The position numbers were made by a program, and so were the translations under genes. Below the pieces are notes generated by a model, which saw only the letters and a list, made by a program, of their open reading frames with translations, was not told the origin of the DNA and made no database searches. This document shows, piece after piece, positions 50,985-63,966 of a stretch of DNA of 64,000 nt. Location of the stretch: positions 1 through 64,000 of the forward strand of contig CANJBL010000001.1 in the NCBI GenBank assembly GCA_947472795.1. The letters are read 5' to 3'. Within the stretch, counting starts at the first letter, position 1. Each line of letters starts with the position of its first letter. This DNA is from Fidelibacterota bacterium (GTDB taxonomy: Bacteria; Pseudomonadota; Alphaproteobacteria; Rhodospirillales; Rhodospirillaceae).

Positions 50985-51228
50985 ACTTTTCGTCTCTCCC
51001 AACGTGCATACCTTTGAAGGCCGGGAGTGTAGCGGAAAACGAGTCACAAAACCGTAATCACAATGTCACCACAATTGGCGTCCGCGGGCGGCCCACTTGC
51101 TCTCGCGCTGATCCTGTCGGAGTATGCGACAGGGACGAGCGGCTAAGCCGGAACTCATTGAAAATGCTTATATTATTCAAACTCTCGGCACCGCCGAACG
51201 ATGCCCATCTTCTGGTCAGGTTGGCGTT

Positions 51229-53166
51229 ATGACACGTCCTCACGCCGGTGATGCTGGCGCCGCACATGTCATAAAAGTCACAGCGGATGAAGCCAGGATC
51301 CTGCTTCAGGAAGGCTTTGCGCTTCAACAACAGGGCGCCTTGGATCAGGCCGCAGCCTGTTATCGGCGCGTGCTGGAACTAGCGCCGTCGCAGTTTGATG
51401 CCTTGCATCTCTCGGGTGTCATCGCCGCGCAGAGAAAGAACTTCACCGATGCTGTTGCCTTGATCGGGCGCGCGATTGCTGTCGATCCCAACCATGCCGG
51501 CGCACATTATAATATGGCACATGTGCTGGAAGATCTGCGCCGCACCGACGCGGCGCTGGCCAGCTACGACCGCGTTCTGGTGCTGAAGCCTGATTATGCC
51601 ACGGCGCACAACAATCGCGGCGGCGTGTTGTTTCGTCTGCGCCGATATACCGAAGCGGCGGCGAGCTATGAGCGCGCCATTGCTCTGGAGCCCGCTTATG
51701 CCGACGCCCACTACAACCGCGCGATGGCATTGATGGAACTGGGGCGCTTGGCCGACGCCGTGACGGCCTTCGATGCAGCCCTCGCGATTGCGCCCGATTA
51801 CCATTTTTTGCCCGGTCTGCGGCTTTACGCAAAGATGCGTATCTGTGACTGGCGCCACTACGACGCCGAAACGCGCGCACTGGTGGACGACGTCAACAAA
51901 GGGCGCCCCGTGACGCCACCCTGGCCGCTCCTGGCGATCAGCGACGCACCTGATGTGCAGCAGCGTGCAGCGGCACTCTGGACGGCTGCGAAATTTCCCG
52001 CCGATGCAACGCTCGGCGCTTTGCCTTTACGCAAGGCAAAGGACAAGATTCGCCTTGCTTACGTTTCCATGGATTTCCGCCAGCATCCAGTCTCGGCCCT
52101 TATTGCCGAGGTTATCGAGAAACATGATCGCGCGCGGTTTGAGATTTTCGCGTTCTCCTTCGGGCCCGACACAGGCGATCCTTTGCGCAAAAGGATGGAG
52201 AAAGCCTTCGATCATTTCATCGACGTACAGCAACAGGCGGACCACGACATCGCAGCGCAGATTCGCGCGCAGGAGATCGACATCGCCATCGATCTTGCGG
52301 GCTACACCACGGACTCGCGCCCGGGCATTTTTGCCCTGCGGGCAGCGCCTATCCAGGTGAACTATCTGGGCTATCCCGCGACCATGGCCGCACCCTATAT
52401 GGACTACATCGTGGCGGATCAGACTGTCATCCCCGCCAGTCAACGCAATGCCTACACTGAGAAGGTTGCGGCCCTGCCCTGCTTCCAGGCCAACGACAGC
52501 CAACGCCCCGTCGCCACGAAGACCTTCACGCGCGCCGAACTTGGTCTGCCCGCGACCGGCTTTGTATTCTGCTGTTTCAACAACACGTTTAAACTCAACC
52601 CCGATGTCTTCGCGAGCTGGATGCGGATCCTGACCCAAGTGCCCGACAGTGTGTTGCTGCTTTTTGCCGAGAACTCGCAAGCTGCCGCGAACCTGCGCGC
52701 CGCAGCGGATGCGGCCAATGTCGCGCCCGCGCGGCTGGTGTTCGCGGAGCGCATTCCCATGGCGGAACATCTTGCCCGCTATCGCATTGCGGACCTGTTC
52801 CTCGATACCTGGCCCTTCAATGCCGGCACAACCGCCAGCGACGCGCTGTGGTCCGGCCTGCCCGTGCTGACACGGCAGGGCAAAAGTTTCGTGGGCCGCA
52901 TGGCTGCGAGCCTTCTGGGCGCCGTGGGTCTTGCGGAACTTGTGACCTCGTCCGCCGCCGACTATGAGGCCATGGCCGTAGCTTTGGCGCGAGATACTGC
53001 GCGCTTGGCCGGGCTCAAGGATCATTTGGAGAAAAACCGCGACACTGTTTTGCTGTTCGACAGCACGCGCACAACGCGGCACTTGGAGGCGGCCTATACC
53101 AACATGATCACCCGCCTGGATGCAGGCTTGCTCCCGGAGCACATCGATGCGGTCCCCGCCCAATGA
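51229..53166 (+). CDS. TPR O-GlcNAc-transferase-like glycosyltransferase (SPINDLY/GT41 type)
   Basis: A ~645-residue cytosolic protein. Residues ~20-230 hold five to six TPRs (DAVALIGRAIAVDPNHAGAH and similar). From ~273 follows the GT41 catalytic region: RLAYVSMDFRQHPVSAL with the catalytic-type His, the LNP block CCFNNTFKLNPDVF with the nucleotide-binding lysine, and FLDTWPFNAGTTASDALWSGLP near the end. Such bacterial enzymes O-glycosylate proteins, for instance flagellins or adhesins. Start at 51229; a longer frame begins at 51124. The next gene overlaps by 4 bases. Confidence 0.9.
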   Translation: MTRPHAGDAGAAHVIKVTADEARILLQEGFALQQQGALDQAAACYRRVLELAPSQFDALHLSGVIAAQRKNFTDAVALIGRAIAVDPNHAGAHYNMAHVLEDLRRTDAALASYDRVLVLKPDYATAHNNRGGVLFRLRRYTEAAASYERAIALEPAYADAHYNRAMALMELGRLADAVTAFDAALAIAPDYHFLPGLRLYAKMRICDWRHYDAETRALVDDVNKGRPVTPPWPLLAISDAPDVQQRAAALWTAAKFPADATLGALPLRKAKDKIRLAYVSMDFRQHPVSALIAEVIEKHDRARFEIFAFSFGPDTGDPLRKRMEKAFDHFIDVQQQADHDIAAQIRAQEIDIAIDLAGYTTDSRPGIFALRAAPIQVNYLGYPATMAAPYMDYIVADQTVIPASQRNAYTEKVAALPCFQANDSQRPVATKTFTRAELGLPATGFVFCCFNNTFKLNPDVFASWMRILTQVPDSVLLLFAENSQAAANLRAAADAANVAPARLVFAERIPMAEHLARYRIADLFLDTWPFNAGTTASDALWSGLPVLTRQGKSFVGRMAASLLGAVGLAELVTSSAADYEAMAVALARDTARLAGLKDHLEKNRDTVLLFDSTRTTRHLEAAYTNMITRLDAGLLPEHIDAVPAQ

Positions 53167-56100
53167 CCGGCGCCGCGCAATCTTTGCAGCAAGCCTTTGA
53201 CGCCTTCCGTCAGGGCGACCTCGACGGCGCGAACGCGCTCTGCACGGCCGTGCTCAAAGATATGCCGCAGTCCTTCGAAGCCTTACATCTTCTGGGTGTG
53301 ATCGCCTTTCAGAAGGGTGCGCCACAGCAGGCCGCGACGCTCTTTGAGAAAGCCGTTGCCGTGCAACCAGAGAATGCTTCAGCACGCGGCAACTTGGGCG
53401 CGGCCCTGGAAACCATGGGTCAGTGGGAGGCAGCGCTTGATCAGTATGAGCGGGCCATCGCGCTGGCACCCAACGCCAATACCTTTCTCAATCGCGGCAA
53501 TGTGCTGGGCCGTTTGAGGCGGACCGATGCGGCTCTTGCCAGCTATGAGCAGGCCATAGCACTTCAGCCCGCGCACGCAGACGCGTATCTGAACGCAGGC
53601 AATCTGCTGCGCGAGATGAGGCAGTCTGAAAAGGCCCTCGCCTTCTATGAGAGAGGTATCGCGGCGGTGCCGCGCCATGCCGGTCTGCACAACAATCGCG
53701 GCATAGCCTTGAAGGATGTGGGGCGGCTGAACGATGCAGGTGCGGCTTATGATGCCGCCATCGCACTCGATCCAGCGCTCGCCGATGCGCATTACAATCG
53801 CGGCAATGCGCTGAGGGCCCTCCTTCAGGAGCGGGCCGCACTCGAGAGTTACGACGGCGCCATTGCCGCGCGCCCCAGCTTCGCAGCGGCGCACAATAAT
53901 CGTGGCAATGCGTTGCGGGCTTTGCGCCGGTTACCCGAAGCGCTCGCGGCTTATGAGCACGCCATTGCGCATGCCCCCGGATATGCCGAGGCTTTTTATA
54001 ATCGCGGCGCCCTGCTGGGCGACCTCCAGCGTCACGACGCAGCAGTGGCGAGCTATGATCAGGCGATTGCCCTGCAACCCCATTATCCCGAAGCGTACAC
54101 CGCGCGCGGCGTCGCGTTGCGCGAAGTGGGCCGCCAGGAGGAAGCACGCGCGAGCCATGTCACCGCGCTGCGGCTTGCCCCCGATCTCGCGCAAGCGCAT
54201 TGGGATCTGGCGCTGTGGTGCCTTCAGAACGGCCGCTTCGCCGAAGGCTGGCAGGAATACCAATGGCGCTGGAAGAATGCGGACCTGAAGCTCGATCCCC
54301 GCAACTTCCCACAACCGATCTGGGGCGGAGAAGATATTCGCGGCAAGACCATCCTGCTGCACGCCGAACAGGGCTTAGGTGACACCTTGCAAGCCTGCCG
54401 GTATGCACCGCTGGTGGCGAGCTTTGGCGCCCGCGTCATCCTGGAAGTGCAGGAGCCTTTGGCGGAGCTGATGAAGTCCCTGGCCGGCGTTGCCGCCGTC
54501 ATCATCAACGGTCAACCACTGCCCGCTTTTGATGTGCACTGTCCGTTGCTCAGTCTGCCGGGTTTCTTCAAGACAGAGACAACAAACATCCCGGCGGCAG
54601 ACGGTTATCTCGTCGTACCGAAGGACCACCTTGCCATATGGCAAAGCAAACTCGGCACCGCCACCGCGCGCCGGGTCGGCATCGTCTGGCGTGGCAACGC
54701 CAGCCACAAGAACGATCTCAACCGCAGCATTCCTTTGCCTGTGTTTCTAAAAGCGCTGCCCCCTGGGCTTGACTACATCAACTTGCAGAAAGACCTGACG
54801 GACGAAGAAAGCGACCTGCTGCGCACACGGACTGATATCAAACATGTTGGCGACAGCTTGCGCGACTTCTCCGATACCGCCGCCGTCTGCACGTTGGCTG
54901 ACATTGTCATCACCGTCGACACCAGCGTTGCGCATCTTGCCGGGGCTTTGGGGCGTGCTTTCTGGGTGATGCTGCCGTTCAACCCCGATTGGCGCTGGCT
55001 TCTGCAACGCACCGACAGCCCCTGGTACACGGGCGCCAAACTTTATCGGCAAGAAACGCCGGGCGATTGGACGCCGGTGACGGCGCAGGTTTCCGCTGAC
55101 CTGATGGCCTTCGCCGGCACATCCGTTACCGCAGAGGCCCACAACGAACACGGTATCGCGCTTTACGCCCAAGGCGATTTCCAGGGCGCCATCGTCAGCT
55201 ACAGCCGCGCGATAGCCTTGAAGCCCGACCTTGCCGTGGCCTTTATCAATCGCGGCGTCGCCTACCGCGAACTTGAATACCTGGCCGCTGCCCTCGCCGA
55301 CTATGACCGCGCGCTGACCCTGGACCCGCACCACGCAGGCATCCTCAACAATCGCGGCATCGCCTTCAGTGATCTCGGTCGTTACGCCGATGCCTTGCGG
55401 GATTTCGAGGCGGCCATCGCGTTGCAGCCGGATAGTGCGGAAGCCTATTACAATCGCGGCGCCACTTTGACCCGTTTGAACCGCCATACCGAAGCCCTGG
55501 CAAGTTACGAGCGCGCCATCGCGATCCGCCCACATTATGCCGAGGCTTATAATGGCCGTGGGTTGGCCTTGCGCGATTTGGGGCGTCCAGAAGATGCCAT
55601 CGCCAGTCACAGGGACGCGCTGACGGTGTCGCCCGACATGGCGCAAGCTCACTGGAGTCTGAGTTTCGCTTTGTTGCAGGTGGGCAACTTTGCCGAAGGA
55701 TGGCGCGAGCAGGAGTGGCGGTGGCGCACGCGCGAGCTCAAGCTCACGCCGCGCGCGTTCGCTCAACCCCTTTGGCACGGCACGGAATCGCTGCAGGGCA
55801 AAACCATTCTGCTGCACGCCGAACAGGGCTTTGGCGATACCTTGCAATTCTGCCGCTACGCCACACTGGTTTCTGAGCGCGGCGCAAACGTATTACTGGA
55901 AGTGCCAGCACCTCTTGTCACTCTTTTGCGCGGGCTCGAAGGCGTCGCCGCTGTGATCGCAACCGGCGATCCGCTGCCGGCTTTTGATCTGCACTGCCCC
56001 TTAGCCAGCTTGCCGTTGGCCTTCGGGACGGACGAACATTCCATTCCGTTTGCGCGTGGATATCTGAAAGCGCCGCCAGAAAAGACTCCCGAAAAAGGGA

Positions 56101-56573
56101 CAAGGCGGCGTATCGGCATCGTTTGGCGCGGCAATGCTGTGCACAAGAACGACCACAACCGCAGCATTCCTCTGTCCGATTTTCTGACCGCGCTGCCCGC
56201 TGGGCTGGACTATGTAAGCTTGCAGAAGGACCTGACGCGCGAGGAAGAAGCGTGTCTGACCGCGCGCCCCGACATTCATCACCTTGGCGACGCTTTGCAT
56301 GACTTCAGCGATACCGCCGCCGCTCTCGCGAGCCTGGACGTGATTGTGAGCGTGGATACGAGCGTGGTCCATCTCGCGGGGGCGCTGGGCCGCCCCGTGT
56401 GGATCTTGCTGCCGTTCAATCCCGATTGGCGTTGGCTGCTAAACCGCGCCGATAGCCCCTGGTATGCGAGCGCCATTCTTTATCGGCAGCAAGGGCCCAG
56501 CGACTGGGCATCAGCTTTGTCGCGGATCGCCACCGATCTTGCGGCTTTTGCCGCGGACAATGCCGCACCCTGA
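53163..56573 (+). CDS. Tandem-duplicated TPR-glycosyltransferase (two complete modules)
   Basis: A 1136-residue protein that is two copies of one architecture. Module 1: TPRs over ~1-380 (about ten), then a GT-B/heptosyltransferase-like domain from ~388 with ILLHAEQGLGDTLQACRYA and VDTSVAHLAGALGRAFWVM. Module 2: TPRs from ~655 to ~860 (five), then a second GT domain from ~875 with ILLHAEQGFGDTLQFCRYA and VDTSVVHLAGALGRPVWIL. The D-T-S-V-x-H-L-A-G-A-L-G block is that of GT9-like ends. Both GT copies keep the same motifs, so both may be active. ATGA overlap with the upstream GT41-type gene. Sugar and target are unknown. Confidence 0.88.
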   Translation: MTGAAQSLQQAFDAFRQGDLDGANALCTAVLKDMPQSFEALHLLGVIAFQKGAPQQAATLFEKAVAVQPENASARGNLGAALETMGQWEAALDQYERAIALAPNANTFLNRGNVLGRLRRTDAALASYEQAIALQPAHADAYLNAGNLLREMRQSEKALAFYERGIAAVPRHAGLHNNRGIALKDVGRLNDAGAAYDAAIALDPALADAHYNRGNALRALLQERAALESYDGAIAARPSFAAAHNNRGNALRALRRLPEALAAYEHAIAHAPGYAEAFYNRGALLGDLQRHDAAVASYDQAIALQPHYPEAYTARGVALREVGRQEEARASHVTALRLAPDLAQAHWDLALWCLQNGRFAEGWQEYQWRWKNADLKLDPRNFPQPIWGGEDIRGKTILLHAEQGLGDTLQACRYAPLVASFGARVILEVQEPLAELMKSLAGVAAVIINGQPLPAFDVHCPLLSLPGFFKTETTNIPAADGYLVVPKDHLAIWQSKLGTATARRVGIVWRGNASHKNDLNRSIPLPVFLKALPPGLDYINLQKDLTDEESDLLRTRTDIKHVGDSLRDFSDTAAVCTLADIVITVDTSVAHLAGALGRAFWVMLPFNPDWRWLLQRTDSPWYTGAKLYRQETPGDWTPVTAQVSADLMAFAGTSVTAEAHNEHGIALYAQGDFQGAIVSYSRAIALKPDLAVAFINRGVAYRELEYLAAALADYDRALTLDPHHAGILNNRGIAFSDLGRYADALRDFEAAIALQPDSAEAYYNRGATLTRLNRHTEALASYERAIAIRPHYAEAYNGRGLALRDLGRPEDAIASHRDALTVSPDMAQAHWSLSFALLQVGNFAEGWREQEWRWRTRELKLTPRAFAQPLWHGTESLQGKTILLHAEQGFGDTLQFCRYATLVSERGANVLLEVPAPLVTLLRGLEGVAAVIATGDPLPAFDLHCPLASLPLAFGTDEHSIPFARGYLKAPPEKTPEKGTRRRIGIVWRGNAVHKNDHNRSIPLSDFLTALPAGLDYVSLQKDLTREEEACLTARPDIHHLGDALHDFSDTAAALASLDVIVSVDTSVVHLAGALGRPVWILLPFNPDWRWLLNRADSPWYASAILYRQQGPSDWASALSRIATDLAAFAADNAAP

Positions 56574-56696
56574 CGGACGTCGCGCCGGGCGCGCCCGACT
56601 CTTCACTATACAAAGCAGGTAGAGGCCGCTTACACCTTCAGGAGGAGCGCGGCCGGAGCGACCTCGGCAGTATATAAATTTTTGCATGCGATAGAG

Positions 56697-58145
56697 ATGA
56701 ACCAAGACACACCCACCACCGGCGAGCAGATTGAGAAAGGCACCGTTCCCACCGGCACACAAGAGAAGGCCGTGGTGGAGGCGACGGAGTTTGTCGATGC
56801 GCGCGTGGCGCCGCGCGGCAGCCTAGAGAACCTGTCACACGAAGAGGTTGCTAAACTGCTCGATCGGGGCCAGGGCGGCCTGTATCCCGTTTTCCGCCAA
56901 TGTGCGCTCGCCGTGCTCAACTCGGGCAGCTACAGCGACGACCCGCGCGCGCTGTTCGAAAAATACCGCGCCTTCGAACTGAAGATCGTGCAGCAGGCCT
57001 GGGGCATCAAGCTGGAGATGACACACGCGCCCGCCGGTGCCTTTGTCGATGGCGAGATGATTCGCGGTGTGAAAGAGCACTTGTTCGCGGTCCTGCGCGA
57101 CATCGTCTACATCTCCAACGAGATCATGGAGAGCGGACGCTTCGATCTGGGCACGCACGACGGCATCACCAACGCCGTCTTCTGTATCCTGCGCAACGCA
57201 GGTGTTCTGGAAACCAAAGGCCAACCCGATCTTGTTGTCTGCTGGGGCGGGCATTCCATCAGCCGCGAGGAGTACGACTACACCAAGCGCGTGGGCTACG
57301 AGCTGGGCCTGCGCTGCCTGAATGTGTGCACAGGCTGCGGCCCCGGCGCCATGAAAGGTCCCATGAAGGGCGCCACCATCGGCCACGCCAAACAGCGCTT
57401 CGATGTTGGGCATTACATCGGGCTCACCGAGCCCGGCATCGTGGCCGCCGAGCCGCCCAACGCCATCGTCAATCACCTCGTCATCATGCCCGACATCGAG
57501 AAGCGCCTGGAGGCCTTCGTGCGCCTGGGCCATGGCATTGTGGTGTTCCCCGGCGGCGTCGGCACCTTGGAAGAAATTCTGTACCTGTTGGGCGTGTTGC
57601 TGGACCCTGCGAACGCCGACCAGCCCATGCCGTTGATCTTCACCGGACCCGCCTCGGCCGCGTCTTATTTCCATCGCATTGACGAATTTGTGAGCCTCAC
57701 TTTGGGACCCAAGGCCCGCGAGCGCTATCAGATCATCATCGATGACCCCGCTGCCGTCGCCAGGGCCATGGTCTCAGGGTTGGAGCGCGTGCGCCACCAC
57801 CGCACCGTCACGGGCGATGCCTATAATTTCAACTGGACGCTGCATATCCCACGCGAACTTCAGGCACCTTTTGTGGTGAGCCACGAAAGCGTGGCCGCCC
57901 TCGACCTGCATCTGGACCAGCCTGTGCACGCACGTGCTGCCAACCTGCGCCGTGTGTTCTCGGCCCTTGTGGCGGGCAATATCCGAGCACCCATGATCCG
58001 GCTGGTGGAAGAGCGCGGGCCTTTCGAGATCAGCGGCGATGCTCGCCTCATGCAGGCCATCGATGCCCTGTTGGGCGAGTTCGTCGCGCAAAAGCGCATG
58101 AAGCTCTCGGGCGACTATCACCCGGTGTACCGCATCGTCGCTTAA
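56697..58145 (+). CDS. ppnN: Pyrimidine/purine-5'-nucleotide nucleosidase PpnN (LOG family)
   Basis: A 482-residue enzyme that cleaves nucleoside monophosphates at the N-glycosidic bond, linked in E. coli to (p)ppGpp control of nucleotide pools. The Rossmann-like LOG core carries GCGPGAMKGPMKGA and the catalytic-type motif GHGIVVFPGGVGTLEE (around residue 285); N- and C-terminal extensions give the long PpnN form (E. coli 454). I chose the ATG at 56697; a TTG five codons upstream is weaker. It starts a plus-strand group of five genes. Confidence 0.92.
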   Translation: MNQDTPTTGEQIEKGTVPTGTQEKAVVEATEFVDARVAPRGSLENLSHEEVAKLLDRGQGGLYPVFRQCALAVLNSGSYSDDPRALFEKYRAFELKIVQQAWGIKLEMTHAPAGAFVDGEMIRGVKEHLFAVLRDIVYISNEIMESGRFDLGTHDGITNAVFCILRNAGVLETKGQPDLVVCWGGHSISREEYDYTKRVGYELGLRCLNVCTGCGPGAMKGPMKGATIGHAKQRFDVGHYIGLTEPGIVAAEPPNAIVNHLVIMPDIEKRLEAFVRLGHGIVVFPGGVGTLEEILYLLGVLLDPANADQPMPLIFTGPASAASYFHRIDEFVSLTLGPKARERYQIIIDDPAAVARAMVSGLERVRHHRTVTGDAYNFNWTLHIPRELQAPFVVSHESVAALDLHLDQPVHARAANLRRVFSALVAGNIRAPMIRLVEERGPFEISGDARLMQAIDALLGEFVAQKRMKLSGDYHPVYRIVA

Positions 58146-58186: not shown

Positions 58187-59158
58187 GTGCCGCGTGGCGA
58201 TGCCTTGTGGTATGCGGGCCAAGACCGCGTCGAACTGCGCACTGAACAGGCGTGCGCCCCCGGCGCGGGCGACGTCTGCGTCGCGGCGCGCTTTTCGGGC
58301 ATCAGCCGAGGCACGGAACGGCTCATATTTTCCGGCCGCGTGCCCGCATCCGAATACCAGCGCATGCGCTGCCCGCATCAGGCGGGCGACTTTCCATTTC
58401 CCGTGAAATACGGCTACGCCCTGGTGGGCGAGGTGGAACAAGGCCCCGCCTCTCTCATGGGCAAATCCGTTTTCCTGCTTCATCCGCACCAGAGAAAAAT
58501 GTGCGTGCCGGCAGGCAATGTGCATGTCATCCCCGAGGGCGTGCCGCTGAAACGTGCGGCGCTCGCGGCCAATATCGAAACCGCGCTCAACGTCACGTGG
58601 GATTCCGGTGCGGCCCCCGGCGACAAGGTGTTGGTGGTGGGCGGCGGTGTGCTGGGGCTTCTGACGGCGGCGATCATCGCCGGCATTCCCGGAACGACTG
58701 TGACGGTGGCGGACGTGGACCCCACGCGTGCGCCTATCGCCGCGAAATTGGGCGCCGCTTTCACCCTTCCCGACGCCGCGCCACGCGACCAGGATATTGT
58801 GATTCACACCAGCAGCACCGCAGCCGGTTTACAGGTAGCGCTCGCCAGTGCGGGCACGGAAGCGCGCGTGGTCGAAGCCAGCTGGTACGGCGACAAAGAT
58901 GTAGCCGTCCCGCTCGGCGAGGCTTTTCATGCCCGGCGTTTGCAGCTCATCTCCTCACAGGTCGGCGCTGTGCCGCCCGCGCGGCGCGCGCGTTGGACAA
59001 CAGCACGGCGCATGGCGTCTGCACTCTCTTTGTTGCGCGATAGCCGCTTCGATGCCCTGATCACGGGCGAGATCGCCTTTGACGATGCCGTGACGGAAGT
59101 GCCAAAAGTCCTCTCCGGCGGCAGCGCAGGTCTCATGACCGTGCTGCGCTATACCTGA
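58187..59158 (+). CDS. BchC-like MDR dehydrogenase lacking zinc ligands
   Basis: A 323-residue medium-chain dehydrogenase/reductase. The GroES-like half has FSGISRGTERLIF where zinc enzymes have a Cys, and YGYALVGEV where they have GHE, so the catalytic zinc is probably absent. The Rossmann half has VVGGGVLGLL. This subset resembles bacteriochlorophyllide-type BchC dehydrogenases. A GTG start is preceded by AGGGAG. The genes that follow (PTPS-like, GT4, methyltransferase) suggest it oxidises or reduces a small aromatic intermediate. Confidence 0.8.
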   Translation: MPRGDALWYAGQDRVELRTEQACAPGAGDVCVAARFSGISRGTERLIFSGRVPASEYQRMRCPHQAGDFPFPVKYGYALVGEVEQGPASLMGKSVFLLHPHQRKMCVPAGNVHVIPEGVPLKRAALAANIETALNVTWDSGAAPGDKVLVVGGGVLGLLTAAIIAGIPGTTVTVADVDPTRAPIAAKLGAAFTLPDAAPRDQDIVIHTSSTAAGLQVALASAGTEARVVEASWYGDKDVAVPLGEAFHARRLQLISSQVGAVPPARRARWTTARRMASALSLLRDSRFDALITGEIAFDDAVTEVPKVLSGGSAGLMTVLRYT

Positions 59159-59181
59159 TCACCAACCAAGGAAACCGACCC

Positions 59182-59583
59182 ATGTACGCCGTAGAAGTGC
59201 GCGACCACGTCATGATTGCCCATAGCATCAAGGGCGAGGTCTTCGGCCCAGCTCAGAATCTTCATGGCGCCACGTATGTCGTCGACGTCTGCTTCATGCG
59301 CCGCGAACTGGACGAGAACGACATCGTCGTCGATATCGGCCTGGCTCTGGATGTCGTCAAAAGCACGCTCGCCATTATCAATTACAGCAATCTTGATGAG
59401 CACGTTGAGTTCAAGGGCCGGCGCTCCACCACCGAAGCCGTGGCTTTCTGGATCTTCCAGAAAATCAAAGCCGCCGCCGGCGCGGGCAAGCTTGGACCCA
59501 ACGCCAAGGGGCTCGCGCGCCTGAAAATCACGCTGCACGAATCCCACAACGCGCTGGCCTCCTACGAAGCCGACCTGACGTAA
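59182..59583 (+). CDS. 6-pyruvoyltetrahydropterin synthase / QueD family, active-site degenerate
   Basis: A 133-residue T-fold protein. The family zinc site is normally three histidines (AH ... LHGH) with a catalytic Cys before LHGH and a Asp-His pair later. Here AH is kept (His14), LHGH has become LHGA, the Cys region reads FGPAQN, and the LDHxxLD catalytic region reads INYSNLDEH. A glutamate in LHESHNA is kept for the pterin ring. So pterin binding may persist while QueD/PTPS chemistry is probably lost or changed. Its place with RibA/RibD-like genes points to pterin or pyrimidine chemistry. Confidence 0.83.
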   Translation: MYAVEVRDHVMIAHSIKGEVFGPAQNLHGATYVVDVCFMRRELDENDIVVDIGLALDVVKSTLAIINYSNLDEHVEFKGRRSTTEAVAFWIFQKIKAAAGAGKLGPNAKGLARLKITLHESHNALASYEADLT

Positions 59584-59596
59584 GGGAGCTTTGCCG

Positions 59597-60643
59597 GTGC
59601 CCGATGTCTGGTTTGCCATCCCGGGCGACGTAGCGACCCTGACCGGCGGTTACGGCTACGCACGCCGACTGATGGAAGCCCTGCCACGCGCAGGGTGGAC
59701 AGCGCATCACCTGCCGTTACCCGGAACTTTCCCGTCGGCCACACACGAAGACCTCATGGCAAGCGCACGCCTGTTTACCGCCCTGCCGGAAGATGCGCTG
59801 GTCCTGGTGGACGGCTTGGCATACGGCGTTTTCCCGCACGCGATGCTCGAACAAGTGCCGGTACGTTTCGCAGCCCTGGTGCATCATCCGTTGGCGCAGG
59901 AAACTGGTTTGGAGGATGCCGACGTCGCGCGTCTCCGCGTGAGCGAACGCACGGCGTTGTCCTATGCCTCCAGCGTCATCGTCACCAGCCCGCATACATT
60001 GCAGACGCTTGCGGCAGATTACGGCGTGGACCGCGTGCGCCTGTTCCTGGCCGAGCCCGGCACGGACAAGGCATCACGCGCGCCCGGCGGCCATGCCGTG
60101 CCCAATCTTCTCACCGTCGCCACGCTGACACCGCGCAAGGCGCACGACGTTTTGATTGCGGCTTTGGCGCGGATCAAGGAATTGCCCTGGACCAGCACGC
60201 TCGTGGGCAGCCTGGAACGCGACCCGTCCATGACCGCGTGCGTGCGCGCCCTTATCGCCCAGCACGGCCTTCAAGACCGCATCGCCTTGCGCGGTGAATT
60301 GAAGGACGACGCGTTGGCGGACGCTTATGACGCCGCCGATGTTTTTGTTTTGCCGTCGCGTCATGAGGGCTACGGCATGGTGTTCGCCGAAGCCCTGGCG
60401 CACGGCCTGCCGATCGTCGCCTGCGACGCGGGTGCGGTGCGCGGCACAGTGCCGGCCGAGGCGGGGCTTCTGGCTCCGCCCGATGATGTGGATGCCTTGG
60501 CGGACGCTTTGCGGCGTGTGCTCTCGGAGCAAGACTTGCGCCGCGCACTGCGTGATGCGGCTTGGGCCTATGGCCAGACTTTGCCGACGTGGGACAATAC
60601 GGCGGCGTGTGTCGCCGAAGCCTTGTGGGCAGCGCTGCCGTGA
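59597..60643 (+). CDS. Glycosyltransferase family 4
   Basis: A ~348-residue GT-B glycosyltransferase with the C-terminal E-x7-E motif (HEGYGMVFAEALAHG) and an N-terminal GGYGYARRL acceptor region. I prefer the GTG at 59597 (eight bases from AAGGGAG) over TTG at 59591 (two bases). It probably adds a sugar to the small molecule made by the surrounding enzymes. Its stop overlaps the next gene's GTG (GTGA). Confidence 0.9.
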   Translation: MPDVWFAIPGDVATLTGGYGYARRLMEALPRAGWTAHHLPLPGTFPSATHEDLMASARLFTALPEDALVLVDGLAYGVFPHAMLEQVPVRFAALVHHPLAQETGLEDADVARLRVSERTALSYASSVIVTSPHTLQTLAADYGVDRVRLFLAEPGTDKASRAPGGHAVPNLLTVATLTPRKAHDVLIAALARIKELPWTSTLVGSLERDPSMTACVRALIAQHGLQDRIALRGELKDDALADAYDAADVFVLPSRHEGYGMVFAEALAHGLPIVACDAGAVRGTVPAEAGLLAPPDDVDALADALRRVLSEQDLRRALRDAAWAYGQTLPTWDNTAACVAEALWAALP

Positions 60644-61476
60644 GCGGCTTCTCCCCCGAATGGCTGGCTTTGCGTGAGCCTGCCGATCAGCGCGCGCGCA
60701 GCCGCGATGTCTTTGCAGCGTGCGCGGCGGCCTTCAAGGACCGTGCAGACCTGAACATCTGCGACATGGGGGCCGGCACGGGCGCTTCGGTACGCGCCCT
60801 GGCTCACCTGCTGCCGGCCCGCCAGACCTGGACCTTGGTGGATCATGATGCAGCCAACCTGACTGCATCACGCGATGCGCTGCGCGCTTGGGCAGACCGC
60901 GCGGAAATGGAAGGCGATGCACTCATCCTTCATCACCAAGGGCAGCGCATCGTTGTCTCAACGCGCGTGCAAGATTTCGCCAAGGCGCCGCGCTGCTGGA
61001 ATGAAGATACGCATTTGGTCACGGCCTCGGCGCTGTTCGACCTCGCCTCTGCCGGTTGGATTGCGCGGTTTACGGATGCCCTCGTCAAAGAGCGTGTGGG
61101 ACTTTTCGCCACCCTTACGGTCGATGGCATCATGCAAGCGGTGCCTGAACATCCTCTGGACACACACGTGTTCACACGTTTCCGCGACCATCAAACCGGC
61201 GATAAAGGTTTTGGACCATCCGCAGGCGGTGAAGCGGCGCGCCTTCTTGAAGAAGCCCTTGTCGCGCGCGGTTATCATTTAACAGCCGGCGATAGTCCGT
61301 GGATCCTGGAAAACACCGACGCCGCTTTGATTGCGGCCCTGATCGATGGCATCGCCGGCGCGGCGGGGGAAACCGGCATGGCGGCGGGGCAGCTGGAGAA
61401 TTGGCGCGCCGCGCGGCGGCTTGACACTCATCGCCTTGTCATCGGCCACCGCGACGTTTTTGCGGTGCCGACTTAG
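60640..61476 (+). CDS. Class I SAM-dependent methyltransferase
   Basis: A ~278-residue methyltransferase with the SAM motif NICDMGAGTGASVRAL and acidic motif II (TLVDHD). Start taken at GTG 60640, in a GTGA overlap with the glycosyltransferase. The C-terminal half has an aromatic-rich acceptor region. With the GT it would modify the same scaffold. It ends convergently, overlapping the cytochrome b561 stop by 4 bases. Confidence 0.85.
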   Translation: MSGFSPEWLALREPADQRARSRDVFAACAAAFKDRADLNICDMGAGTGASVRALAHLLPARQTWTLVDHDAANLTASRDALRAWADRAEMEGDALILHHQGQRIVVSTRVQDFAKAPRCWNEDTHLVTASALFDLASAGWIARFTDALVKERVGLFATLTVDGIMQAVPEHPLDTHVFTRFRDHQTGDKGFGPSAGGEAARLLEEALVARGYHLTAGDSPWILENTDAALIAALIDGIAGAAGETGMAAGQLENWRAARRLDTHRLVIGHRDVFAVPT

Positions 61477-62012
61477 GAGCCGGGCAGCATGCGGCGCAGG
61501 GTTTCGTCCTTGCGCACAAAATGGTGCTGAAGTGCCGCCGCAATGTGTAACGCCACAAGTCCGCACAGGATGAACGCCAGCGTCATATGTGTGTTCAGCA
61601 ATAGGGTTGCGAGTTCCTTGTTGGGCTCGACGAGGTCGGGTAGCTCGAACAATCCAAAGACCACGATGGGTGCGCCGAAGGCCGACGTTCCCGTCCAGCC
61701 CACCAGCGGCACGGCAAACAGCAGAAAGTAGAGTGCGCCGTGCGTGATGCGCGCCGCGTGTTCCTGCCAGATGGGCAGATCAGCCACCAAAGGCGGCGGC
61801 GGAGAATATAGCCGCCAGATCAGGCGCAGACCCGTGAGGAAAAGGATGGTCGCGCCGAAGGATCGGTGCAGGTCGAAGACCTGATTTTGCGATGGCCCCG
61901 GCTGCATGTTCAGCATGGTGATGCCGAGCGTCACGCCGCACAGGACGCAGACGGCGGTGAGCCAATGCAGGATTTTGGCGGGCGCAGAGTAAGACGCAGG
62001 TGCCATAGACAT
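61473..62012 (-). CDS. Cytochrome b561 family protein
   Basis: A 179-residue four-helix di-haem membrane protein of the prokaryotic b561 (CybB) type. Histidines at LHWLTAV, DLHRSFGATI, ITHGALYF and ALHIAAALQHH are placed as haem ligands. It moves electrons between quinone and a periplasmic partner or superoxide. It follows the RibD-like gene 3 bases away on the minus strand. Confidence 0.9.
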   Translation of the reverse strand: MSMAPASYSAPAKILHWLTAVCVLCGVTLGITMLNMQPGPSQNQVFDLHRSFGATILFLTGLRLIWRLYSPPPPLVADLPIWQEHAARITHGALYFLLFAVPLVGWTGTSAFGAPIVVFGLFELPDLVEPNKELATLLLNTHMTLAFILCGLVALHIAAALQHHFVRKDETLRRMLPGS

Positions 62013-62015
62013 CTC

Positions 62016-62795
62016 CTAACGCGAAAAGGCGCAGTCGAACAACATATCGCCGCCGGGCAGTGCGTGCACGCTCACGTGCGGACGCAGTGCTTTTTCCAAT
62101 GTGTCGATGACCGGAAGTTGAGCGCCGGCAGGCCCCGACCCGATAATCATCGGTGCCGTCATGACATGAAGCCGGTCGAGGCATCCCGCTCCCAGAAAGC
62201 GCGACAGGGTCGCCGGGCCGCCTTCGATGAGAAGGCGCTTGAGGCCAAGACCGCGCAACGCTGCAATCACATCGCCGGCAATAAAACCCGCGCGCGAAGC
62301 GGGCAGGGATATGTGCTCGACGCCGGCGACCTTGGGCGGCGCGCCGACAACGATGCGCCGCGCACCATCATTGGCGAGGCATTTAGCGGCGGACGACATG
62401 CGCCCCTGAGGGTCAATAATAACGCGGGCCGGTTGCGGCCGGCCGGGCGCTTTTGCCGCGCGGCGCACCGTCAGCTGCGGGTCATCGGCAACGACAGTGC
62501 CGACGCCGACCACAACCGCATCCACCAATGCGCGCAACCGGTGTAGGTGCACGAGAGCTGCCGGGCCGTTTATATAATGTGAGTGCCCTGTAGGAGTGGC
62601 CACGCGCCCGTCCAGCGACTGGCCGATCTGGCCGATCACGAAACTTTGATCTTCAGGCAGCGTTGCGACCAAGGGCCCATAAATGGGCCACAGGAAATTA
62701 CCGGAAAAAGCGCGGTTTTCGCCGCAATTCCCGGCTATTGCACATATCTCCAGCCATTGCGGAGTGTCCCGCTCCCAGTCCACAATGGTGTCCAT
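62016..62795 (-). CDS. RibD C-terminal reductase-domain protein (dihydrofolate reductase fold)
   Basis: A 259-residue stand-alone RibD_C reductase. Core motifs are IGQSLDGRVAT, NGPAALVHLHRLRALVDAVVVG and the C-terminal RLLIEGGPATLSRFL, the NADPH-binding region of riboflavin-pathway reductases. The deaminase half of RibD is missing, so it needs a separate deaminase or uses another substrate. I use the ATG at 62795 (MDTIVDW); upstream in-frame codons run into ribA on the opposite strand. Divergent from the GTP cyclohydrolase II gene with a 28-base gap. Confidence 0.85.
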   Translation of the reverse strand: MDTIVDWERDTPQWLEICAIAGNCGENRAFSGNFLWPIYGPLVATLPEDQSFVIGQIGQSLDGRVATPTGHSHYINGPAALVHLHRLRALVDAVVVGVGTVVADDPQLTVRRAAKAPGRPQPARVIIDPQGRMSSAAKCLANDGARRIVVGAPPKVAGVEHISLPASRAGFIAGDVIAALRGLGLKRLLIEGGPATLSRFLGAGCLDRLHVMTAPMIIGSGPAGAQLPVIDTLEKALRPHVSVHALPGGDMLFDCAFSR

Positions 62796-62823
62796 GTCAC
62801 TTTCTTGAAATGTAAGGTTACGC
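62796..62823. promoter_or_regulatory. 28-base divergent gap between RibD-like and RibA-like genes
   Basis: The two starts are only 28 bases apart, too short for two full promoters, so promoters must overlap or lie within the opposing coding regions. AAGGTTA before the GTG of the + gene is its RBS. The arrangement ensures joint control of the two genes. Confidence 0.45.
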
Positions 62824-63966
62824 GTGCCCAACGAAGACGTGAAGATTGGTACCGTCGACGTCGACTTGGCAAGGTGGTTCGGCAACCCCGGACGCCTGAC
62901 CATGCAGCGCGCCATCGCCGAGCTGCGCGCCGGCCGGCCCGTGCGCGTCATCGGCACCGATGGCTCCGCCCTCACCGTTGCGGCTGCGGAAATGCTGGGT
63001 GGCGAGCGCATCGCGGCCTGGAACCGGGCCACGGGCGGCGCGCCCGGCCTGATCCTGCCCGCGCCGCGCCTGGCGCACTTGGGCGTTGCCGTACAAAGTC
63101 ATGCCTTCCTTTCCCTGGCCGGTCTGACCGATGAGGAGATTGACACCATCCTGCGTGGTGTCGAACCGCGGGTGCCGGTGTTCGAACACCGCCCAGCGAC
63201 CGCGCATGAAGAAGCCGCCCTGGAGCTGGTGAAGCGCGCCTATCTTCTGCCGGCCGCCGTGGTGCTGCCGCCGGCCGCCGCCGATGAGCAGCCCGCGCTG
63301 GCCGAAGTGAGTGTATACGCGGTCATGAACTTCCACGAGCAGTCGGCGCGCGACCTCACCATCGCCGCGCGCACGCGCGTGCCGCTGGCGGAAGCGCATG
63401 ATGCCGAATTCGTCATCTTCAGCGGCGGCGACGGCCTGCGCGATCAGGTCGCCATCGTCATCGGCAATCCCGATCCGCAGAAGCCCGTGCTCACCCGTTT
63501 GCATTCCGCTTGCCTGACGGGCGATCTGTTCGCCAGCTTGAAGTGCGATTGCGGCGATCAGTTGCGCCTGGCCGTCGGCGAAATCGCGGCGGCGGGCAGC
63601 GGCGTGCTGCTGTATCTCGATCAAGAAGGCCGTGGCATCGGCCTCCTGAATAAAATGCGCGCCTACGGTTTGCAGGAATTGGGCCACGATACCTTGGACG
63701 CTGACGCGGTGCTGGGGTACGGACCCGACGAGCGCCGCTATGCCATTGCCGGCGCCATGCTGTCGCTGCTCGGCTTTCGCCGCATCACGCTCATGACCAA
63801 CAACCCCGGCAAGATTTCAGCGCTGGAAAGTTTCGGCGTCAACGTCACGGGCCATCAGCGCATCATGGGTGCGGTGAACCCGCACAATCAGAATTACTTG
63901 CAGACCAAGGAGCGGCGCGCCGGCCACCTCTTGGGTCAGCTTCGGCGCGAGCCTCCCAAGACTTAA
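62824..63966 (+). CDS. ribA: GTP cyclohydrolase II with degenerate RibB-like N-terminal domain
   Basis: A 380-residue protein. The C-terminal ~200 residues are a complete GTP cyclohydrolase II: zinc ligands Cys230, Cys241 and Cys243 and the DQEGRGIGLL active site at 267. It opens GTP to the diaminopyrimidine that starts riboflavin and related compounds. The N-terminal ~180 residues are similar in place to RibB (DHBP synthase) but read RVIGTDGSALTVAAAEM where RibB has the acidic ENEGD motif, so that activity is likely lost. GTG start. A normal RibBA copy may exist elsewhere; this copy clusters with the RibD-like and PTPS-like genes. Confidence 0.93.
   Translation: MPNEDVKIGTVDVDLARWFGNPGRLTMQRAIAELRAGRPVRVIGTDGSALTVAAAEMLGGERIAAWNRATGGAPGLILPAPRLAHLGVAVQSHAFLSLAGLTDEEIDTILRGVEPRVPVFEHRPATAHEEAALELVKRAYLLPAAVVLPPAAADEQPALAEVSVYAVMNFHEQSARDLTIAARTRVPLAEAHDAEFVIFSGGDGLRDQVAIVIGNPDPQKPVLTRLHSACLTGDLFASLKCDCGDQLRLAVGEIAAAGSGVLLYLDQEGRGIGLLNKMRAYGLQELGHDTLDADAVLGYGPDERRYAIAGAMLSLLGFRRITLMTNNPGKISALESFGVNVTGHQRIMGAVNPHNQNYLQTKERRAGHLLGQLRREPPKT

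Follow-up and report, generated by a model that had tools for sequence, protein, structure and literature searches.

A widely conserved gene cluster around a PTPS-IV protein that probably serves a GTP-derived product other than riboflavin

A conserved gene set around the PTPS-IV gene

Close to the end of a 64,000-nucleotide stretch of alphaproteobacterial DNA (positions 1 to 64,000 of contig CANJBL010000001.1, assembly GCA_947472795.1; the whole stretch is called the window below) lie seven genes for an MDR-type dehydrogenase, a PTPS-like protein, a GT4 glycosyltransferase, a methyltransferase, a cytochrome b561-type protein, a RibD_C-type reductase and a GTP cyclohydrolase II (RibA). A preliminary description, made from the sequence alone, had proposed that they make a glycosylated and methylated product derived from a pterin or a diaminopyrimidine. 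We find that these genes belong to a larger biosynthetic cluster, of which the window holds one part. The gene set is real and widely conserved, and its core consists of the MDR, PTPS-IV, GT4, methyltransferase and RibD_C genes, with RibA as a frequent extra. Further members are a CDP-alcohol phosphatidyltransferase, a flippase-like membrane protein, a creatininase, a sulfatase-like membrane protein, OpgH, FkbM and b561. The cluster probably makes a small molecule that is derived from GTP and is not riboflavin. The explanation which we regard as the best one, with a probability of roughly 0.6, is a route from GTP to a diaminopyrimidine or pteridine with tailoring reactions, and with a link to a lipid in those loci where the respective genes are present.

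A scan with the alignment of the PTPS-like proteins yielded at least 583 relatives. The best 80 of these, from alpha-, beta- and gammaproteobacteria and actinomycetes and uncorrected for contig ends, served for building hidden Markov models of the cluster families. Because this 80-locus set consists of the best matches, an even sample of 398 Pseudomonadota genomes was drawn in addition; 31 of them match the PTPS-like family, 27 strongly (the genome of the window included), and the four weak matches, which have no cluster genes beside them, were left out of the counts. The 26 strong loci other than our own, mostly of 19.5 kb with about 10 kb around the PTPS-like gene, have some genomes in common with the 80-locus set from which the models were built. 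Of 246 genomes in the class of Actinomycetospora, 37 match the family, and 20 of these loci were examined. As controls we used 19 windows placed by hand at round coordinates in 18 sampled genomes and our own genome.

The set proved to be co-conserved across alphaproteobacteria, which the preliminary description had named as the check to be made, and well beyond this class. Among the 26 loci of the even sample MDR is present in all, GT4 in 25, the methyltransferase in 24, RibD_C in 22 and RibA in 11, the last count being a lower bound, as genome G308, for example, encodes a comparable RibA on a different contig (L179). MDR accompanies PTPS-IV in all 11 families of this sample. Less frequent are the CDP-alcohol phosphatidyltransferase and OpgH (12 loci each), the flippase (11), FkbM (8), b561 (7), the creatininase (6) and the sulfatase-like protein (5). 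In the 80-locus set we count GT4 in 79 loci, MDR in 77, the methyltransferase in 74, RibD_C in 60, RibA in 39 and b561 in 23. The 20 actinomycete loci contain MDR and GT4 throughout, the flippase in 19, RibA and the CDP-alcohol phosphatidyltransferase in 18 each, the methyltransferase in 16, the creatininase in 14, and RibD_C (five of the matches under 100 bits) and the sulfatase-like protein in seven each. None of the 19 control windows holds any cluster family over threshold. Below threshold, GT4 (89 bits), RibA (60 bits), creatininase (59 bits) and FkbM (64 bits) were seen in one window each, the FkbM match having passed a laxer threshold and failed the stricter one used for the counts. Within the order the methyltransferase occurs in 14 of 120 genomes. 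Leaving out our own genome, the PTPS-like gene adjoins it in 12 of 13; the remaining match is weak and comes from a piece of 1727 bases. Pairwise distances of the cluster proteins are correlated with r between 0.71 and 0.93.

Properties of the cluster enzymes

The FGPAQ signature is invariant in 11 aligned proteins and assigns the PTPS-like protein to PTPS-IV, a subfamily of COG0720. When the profile was aligned to the PTPS structure 1b66, the catalytic Cys was found replaced by Ala, the second His of the zinc motif by Ala and the Asp-His pair by Asn-Tyr (we take the residue roles to be those commonly given for PTPS); one of the 11 proteins (L013) retains Asp at the catalytic Asp position. With the catalytic Cys and the HGH zinc motif lost, the protein does not belong to the PTPS and QueD groups (PTPS-I and II). 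The closest solved structure is Streptomyces coelicolor SCO6650 (3d7j, E 1.9e-59), which reportedly lacks zinc and PTPS activity and yet has a pterin-binding site. Glu120 is also invariant among the 11 proteins, and we read it as the putative pterin anchor.

The MDR protein scores 56.7 bits against the NCBIfam model of BchC (cut-off 291) and so does not qualify as a BchC; all its family matches in Pfam and NCBIfam are below cut-off. Judged from the conserved columns against what we take to be the alcohol dehydrogenase motifs, it appears to be without the usual catalytic zinc ligands. The E-x7-E motif of the GT4 protein is intact. For the methyltransferase no match was obtained in Pfam or NCBIfam; its predicted structure (predicted local distance difference test score 95.8) superimposes on 3mgg with a Z of 19.5 and a root mean square deviation of 3.2 over 233 residues, and motif and predicted fold together identify it as a class I S-adenosylmethionine (SAM) methyltransferase.

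In the window RibA the residues of a GTP cyclohydrolase II are intact, namely the zinc ligands C230, C241 and C243 as well as Y281 and R304. The Tyr corresponds to the catalytic residue 105 of E. coli RibA. All 20 cluster RibAs that were aligned, out of 39, share the zinc Cys, the Tyr and the Arg. A His in the motif LGHDT had been considered as the counterpart of the E. coli Tyr105 switch that would lead to a formylated product; it was dropped for the window protein, where the alignment puts Tyr105 at the Tyr of RAY, which is kept. The N-terminal part is predicted to have the fold of a DHBP synthase (RibB) with a Z of about 13, and it does not contain the DDxxRENEGDL motif; the protein is therefore not a bifunctional RibBA. 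Likewise the RibD_C protein is not a bifunctional RibD: PF01872 is the only domain found in it, and the deaminase domain is absent as described before.

Separation from riboflavin synthesis

The degenerate RibB half had been taken as an argument that plain riboflavin synthesis is unlikely to be the purpose of these genes. The observation stands, the argument does not, because a further zinc-motif RibA of this genome (C1:342842) has the same architecture. Better evidence comes from the gene content of the genome. RibD, RibE, RibB, RibH and this other zinc-motif RibA are all encoded outside the cluster, so that, with the neighbours co-conserved, neither of the findings that were to speak against the earlier interpretation was made. 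RibE and RibH, which a riboflavin operon would be expected to have nearby, are matched solely on contig 10, where RibD lies as well. The remaining RibA homologue, a fused RibB-RibA at C10:66193, keeps its RibB motif intact but lacks the zinc motif of RibA; the reverse holds for C1:342842 and the window gene, whose zinc motif is present and whose RibB half is degenerate. The three homologues thus show complementary decay.

A PF00925 match outside the cluster is present in all 26 sampled genomes, and those fused ones that were examined are without the zinc motif. Another RibD_C is found in 21 of the 22 genomes with a cluster RibD_C. The exception is G166, which is listed as 100% complete: no full RibD, RibE or RibH was found in it, and the cluster RibA and RibD_C are kept. 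This one genome is the strongest evidence that both enzymes serve another product. From the gene contents we conclude that riboflavin is probably not the purpose of the cluster. As a separate observation, G505 (L170), G378 (L171), G381 (L172) and G214 (L173, L183) have a RibD_C outside the cluster and no zinc-motif PF00925 match.

Creatininase and the switch residue of RibA

In the archaeal FAPy route a creatininase-family protein (ArfB) and a RibD_C-type reductase (ArfC) act after a GTP cyclohydrolase. The cluster resembles this route in having a creatininase and a RibD_C-type reductase, but the creatininase adjacent to the window scores far under the ArfB cut-off (23.6 bits, cut-off 180); its family match is with MftE instead, likewise below cut-off (106 bits, cut-off 172).

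A cluster RibA is present in 18 of the actinomycete loci examined. In 14 of them it lacks the Tyr, and all 14 have a creatininase close by; in the other four it has the Tyr, and none of these has a creatininase. The Fisher test gives p 3e-4 for this association, a value which overstates the significance because the tree puts the pattern on one or few splits. Such a pattern would be expected if the RibAs without Tyr made a formylated intermediate from which the creatininase removes the formyl group; SCO6655, with Met at the switch position, is said to give a formylated product. No such rule is seen in the other sets, where 28 loci with a Tyr-type RibA have a creatininase and 23 have none, in counts whose sets overlap in genomes and in which the window gene is counted twice. 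To these come L052 (Ile) and L108 (Met), both with a creatininase, L047 (residue unread) without one, and L134, which has the Tyr.

Envelope and lipid genes

The preliminary description had missed the envelope and lipid genes which are linked to the cluster. The flippase-like gene is accompanied by the CDP-alcohol phosphatidyltransferase in 11 of 11 and 27 of 29 loci and in 18 of 19 actinomycete loci; where this pairing occurs, it suggests an end product that is linked to the membrane. OpgH and FkbM are typical of different lineages, although the two sets overlap to some extent: the CDP-alcohol phosphatidyltransferase and OpgH share 4 of 26 and 10 of 80 loci. The sulfatase-like protein has no sequence match in the PDB and none in NCBIfam, just a Pfam sulfatase match below cut-off. 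We regard a lipid- or envelope-linked product as a serious possibility, if somewhat short of an even chance.

Proposed route and alternative explanations

Taken together the enzymes are best explained by a product built on a diaminopyrimidine or pterin, which is glycosylated and methylated and perhaps lipid-linked. From the gene content, its conservation, the state of the motifs and the separation from the riboflavin genes we infer the following reactions and their order. RibA would open GTP to 2,5-diamino-6-ribosylamino-pyrimidinone phosphate, and RibD_C would reduce the ribosyl to the ribityl chain or act on a close analogue. PTPS-IV could then bind the pyrimidine or pteridine ring and carry out a new step, for example a ring closure or a deamination. 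The MDR protein might oxidize or reduce the product, the methyltransferase methylate and the GT4 protein glycosylate it. Where they are present, the CDP-alcohol phosphatidyltransferase and the flippase-like protein might attach the product to the membrane and transport it outward.

Several points weigh against this route. The distance correlations partly reflect the history of the species, and in the open literature searched we found no demonstrated activity for any Pseudomonadota enzyme of the cluster. RibA is linked in just 11 of the 26 loci; the RibA of L052, which is outside the alignment, has Ile at the position of the catalytic Tyr; and in Proteobacteria the creatininase occurs alongside a Tyr-type RibA. 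The CDP-alcohol phosphatidyltransferase is limited to 12 of 26 loci and 3 of 11 families, the creatininase to 6 of 26 and the sulfatase-like protein to 5 of 26 (p 0.05), with the loci counted as independent. Two of the eight annotated plasmid loci (L109 and L110, on Streptomyces plasmids) have PTPS-IV alone within 10 kb. No FMN (flavin mononucleotide) riboswitch was found in 110001 bases, which says little because none was found at the canonical rib genes on L103 either. Finally, the zinc motif is missing from the only other PF00925 gene of G412; G131 and G334 have, apart from the cluster gene, one that lacks it and an unexamined match of 57 bits. The cluster RibA may thus also feed riboflavin synthesis in G412, and perhaps in the other two genomes. 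An auxiliary or redundant riboflavin supply as the role of the whole cluster is nevertheless very improbable given the riboflavin genes elsewhere in our genome and the retention of the cluster in G166, and we know of no riboflavin role for GT4, methyltransferase or PTPS-IV proteins.

The product could also be a soluble pterin glycoside, secreted or kept in the cell, with the envelope genes being mere neighbours. Pterin glycosides occur in cyanobacteria, and the core of MDR, PTPS-IV, GT4, methyltransferase and RibD_C is steadier than any envelope gene. We consider this rather unlikely, as the CDP-alcohol phosphatidyltransferase, the flippase and the sulfatase-like protein recur in Actinomycetes and Proteobacteria in varied arrangements and in none of the 19 controls. 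OpgH in 12 and FkbM in 8 of the 26 loci, together with the loss of the PTPS catalytic residues from PTPS-IV, would suit a cluster for an envelope glycan, of the kind of the periplasmic glucans, where the homologues of RibA, RibD and PTPS would have unrelated substrates. Such a function is quite unlikely in view of the retained zinc Cys, Tyr and Arg of the window RibA and of the 20 actinomycete loci, which keep MDR, PTPS-IV and GT4 and in which no OpgH was found.

Within the preferred route from GTP to a tailored diaminopyrimidine or pteridine, one further-reaching version is a new class of membrane lipid with a GTP-derived pteridine or ribityl-pyrimidine head group. The CDP-alcohol phosphatidyltransferase would attach this group and GT4 would add the sugar; the lipid would be flipped outward and might perhaps exchange electrons with b561. 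In this specific form the idea is unlikely.

Relation to known systems

Parts of the cluster are already in print. FGPAQ is the signature of PTPS-IV, and a node of 561 such sequences has PF00925 and PF01872 as neighbours (AGeNNT, cluster-node 62; PMC5445326), which is the likeness to our cluster. The passages of that paper on this neighbourhood label PF00925 as GTP cyclohydrolase I (FolE2), whereas the window protein is a GTP cyclohydrolase II, and they give no pathway and no MDR, GT4, methyltransferase or envelope genes. Another paper, with reference to unpublished work, gives PTPS-IV a role in the synthesis of F420 in archaea (PMC5041015). The pepteridine cluster of Photorhabdus, as far as it is described in the part of the source used here (PMC5384830), is similar as a small-molecule cluster with a PTPS homologue but differs in having a GTP cyclohydrolase I and an NRPS-like (nonribosomal peptide synthetase-like) enzyme and no RibA, RibD or glycosyltransferase.

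A plasmid of S. fungicidicus carries the CDP-alcohol phosphatidyltransferase, MDR, PTPS-IV, GT4, methyltransferase, flippase, creatininase and RibA genes together. Its RibA is a stand-alone protein with Met at the switch position, which sets it apart from the window RibA with its Tyr and RibB-fold half. No assigned product of a PTPS-IV cluster was found in the open literature searched, and the deposited records name the cluster genes after queuosine and riboflavin enzymes. A correct assignment would mend many annotations and give PTPS-IV a function, and it might lead to a new cofactor, pigment or lipid made from GTP.

Gene layout and neighbouring genes

All seven genes were found where the preliminary description had put them, and the families it gave are borne out (Table 1); its interpretation holds in part, the co-conservation and the presence of other ribA and ribD genes supporting it and the argument from the dead RibB half failing. 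The GT4 and methyltransferase genes overlap by 4 bases. Since b561 on the reverse strand overlaps the end of the methyltransferase gene, also by 4 bases, the two gene groups converge, and the start codons of RibD_C and RibA have 28 bp between them, head to head on opposite strands. The end of the window cuts the cluster: three further genes follow on the same contig (C1:63967-67167), for the creatininase-family protein, the sulfatase-like membrane protein and the CDP-alcohol phosphatidyltransferase.

Table 1. Cluster genes within the window
Feature	Position	Strand	Evidence
MDR-type dehydrogenase, distantly BchC-like	58187..59158	+	NCBIfam BchC below cut-off; conserved columns; 26/26 sampled loci
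PTPS-IV T-fold protein (FGPAQxLHGATY)	59182..59583	+	PF01242, 76.9 bits; alignment; best PDB match SCO6650
GT4 glycosyltransferase	59591..60643	+	PF00534, 104.8 bits; E259 and E267 conserved
Class I SAM-dependent methyltransferase	60640..61476	+	Motif and predicted fold
Cytochrome b561-type membrane protein, facultative member	61473..62012	-	PF01292; 7/26 sampled loci
RibD_C-type pyrimidine reductase	62016..62795	-	PF01872, 120.4 bits; best PDB match 6p8c; 22/26 sampled loci
GTP cyclohydrolase II fused to degenerate RibB-fold domain	62824..63966	+	PF00925, 166.8 bits; aligned to E. coli RibA 2bz0

Upstream of the cluster a PpnN nucleosidase is encoded at 56682-58145; it is also present in just 2 of the 80 related loci and therefore probably reflects local synteny. 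The region 51124-56573 codes for a pair of large TPR proteins, of which one contains a GT41 domain (O-GlcNAc transferase type) and the other shows a weak GT9 match. In seven loci (L044, L052, L054, L082, L083, L097 and L101) the gene for a YceI-like periplasmic protein, named from reading its sequence, lies some 2.5 kb upstream of PTPS-IV.

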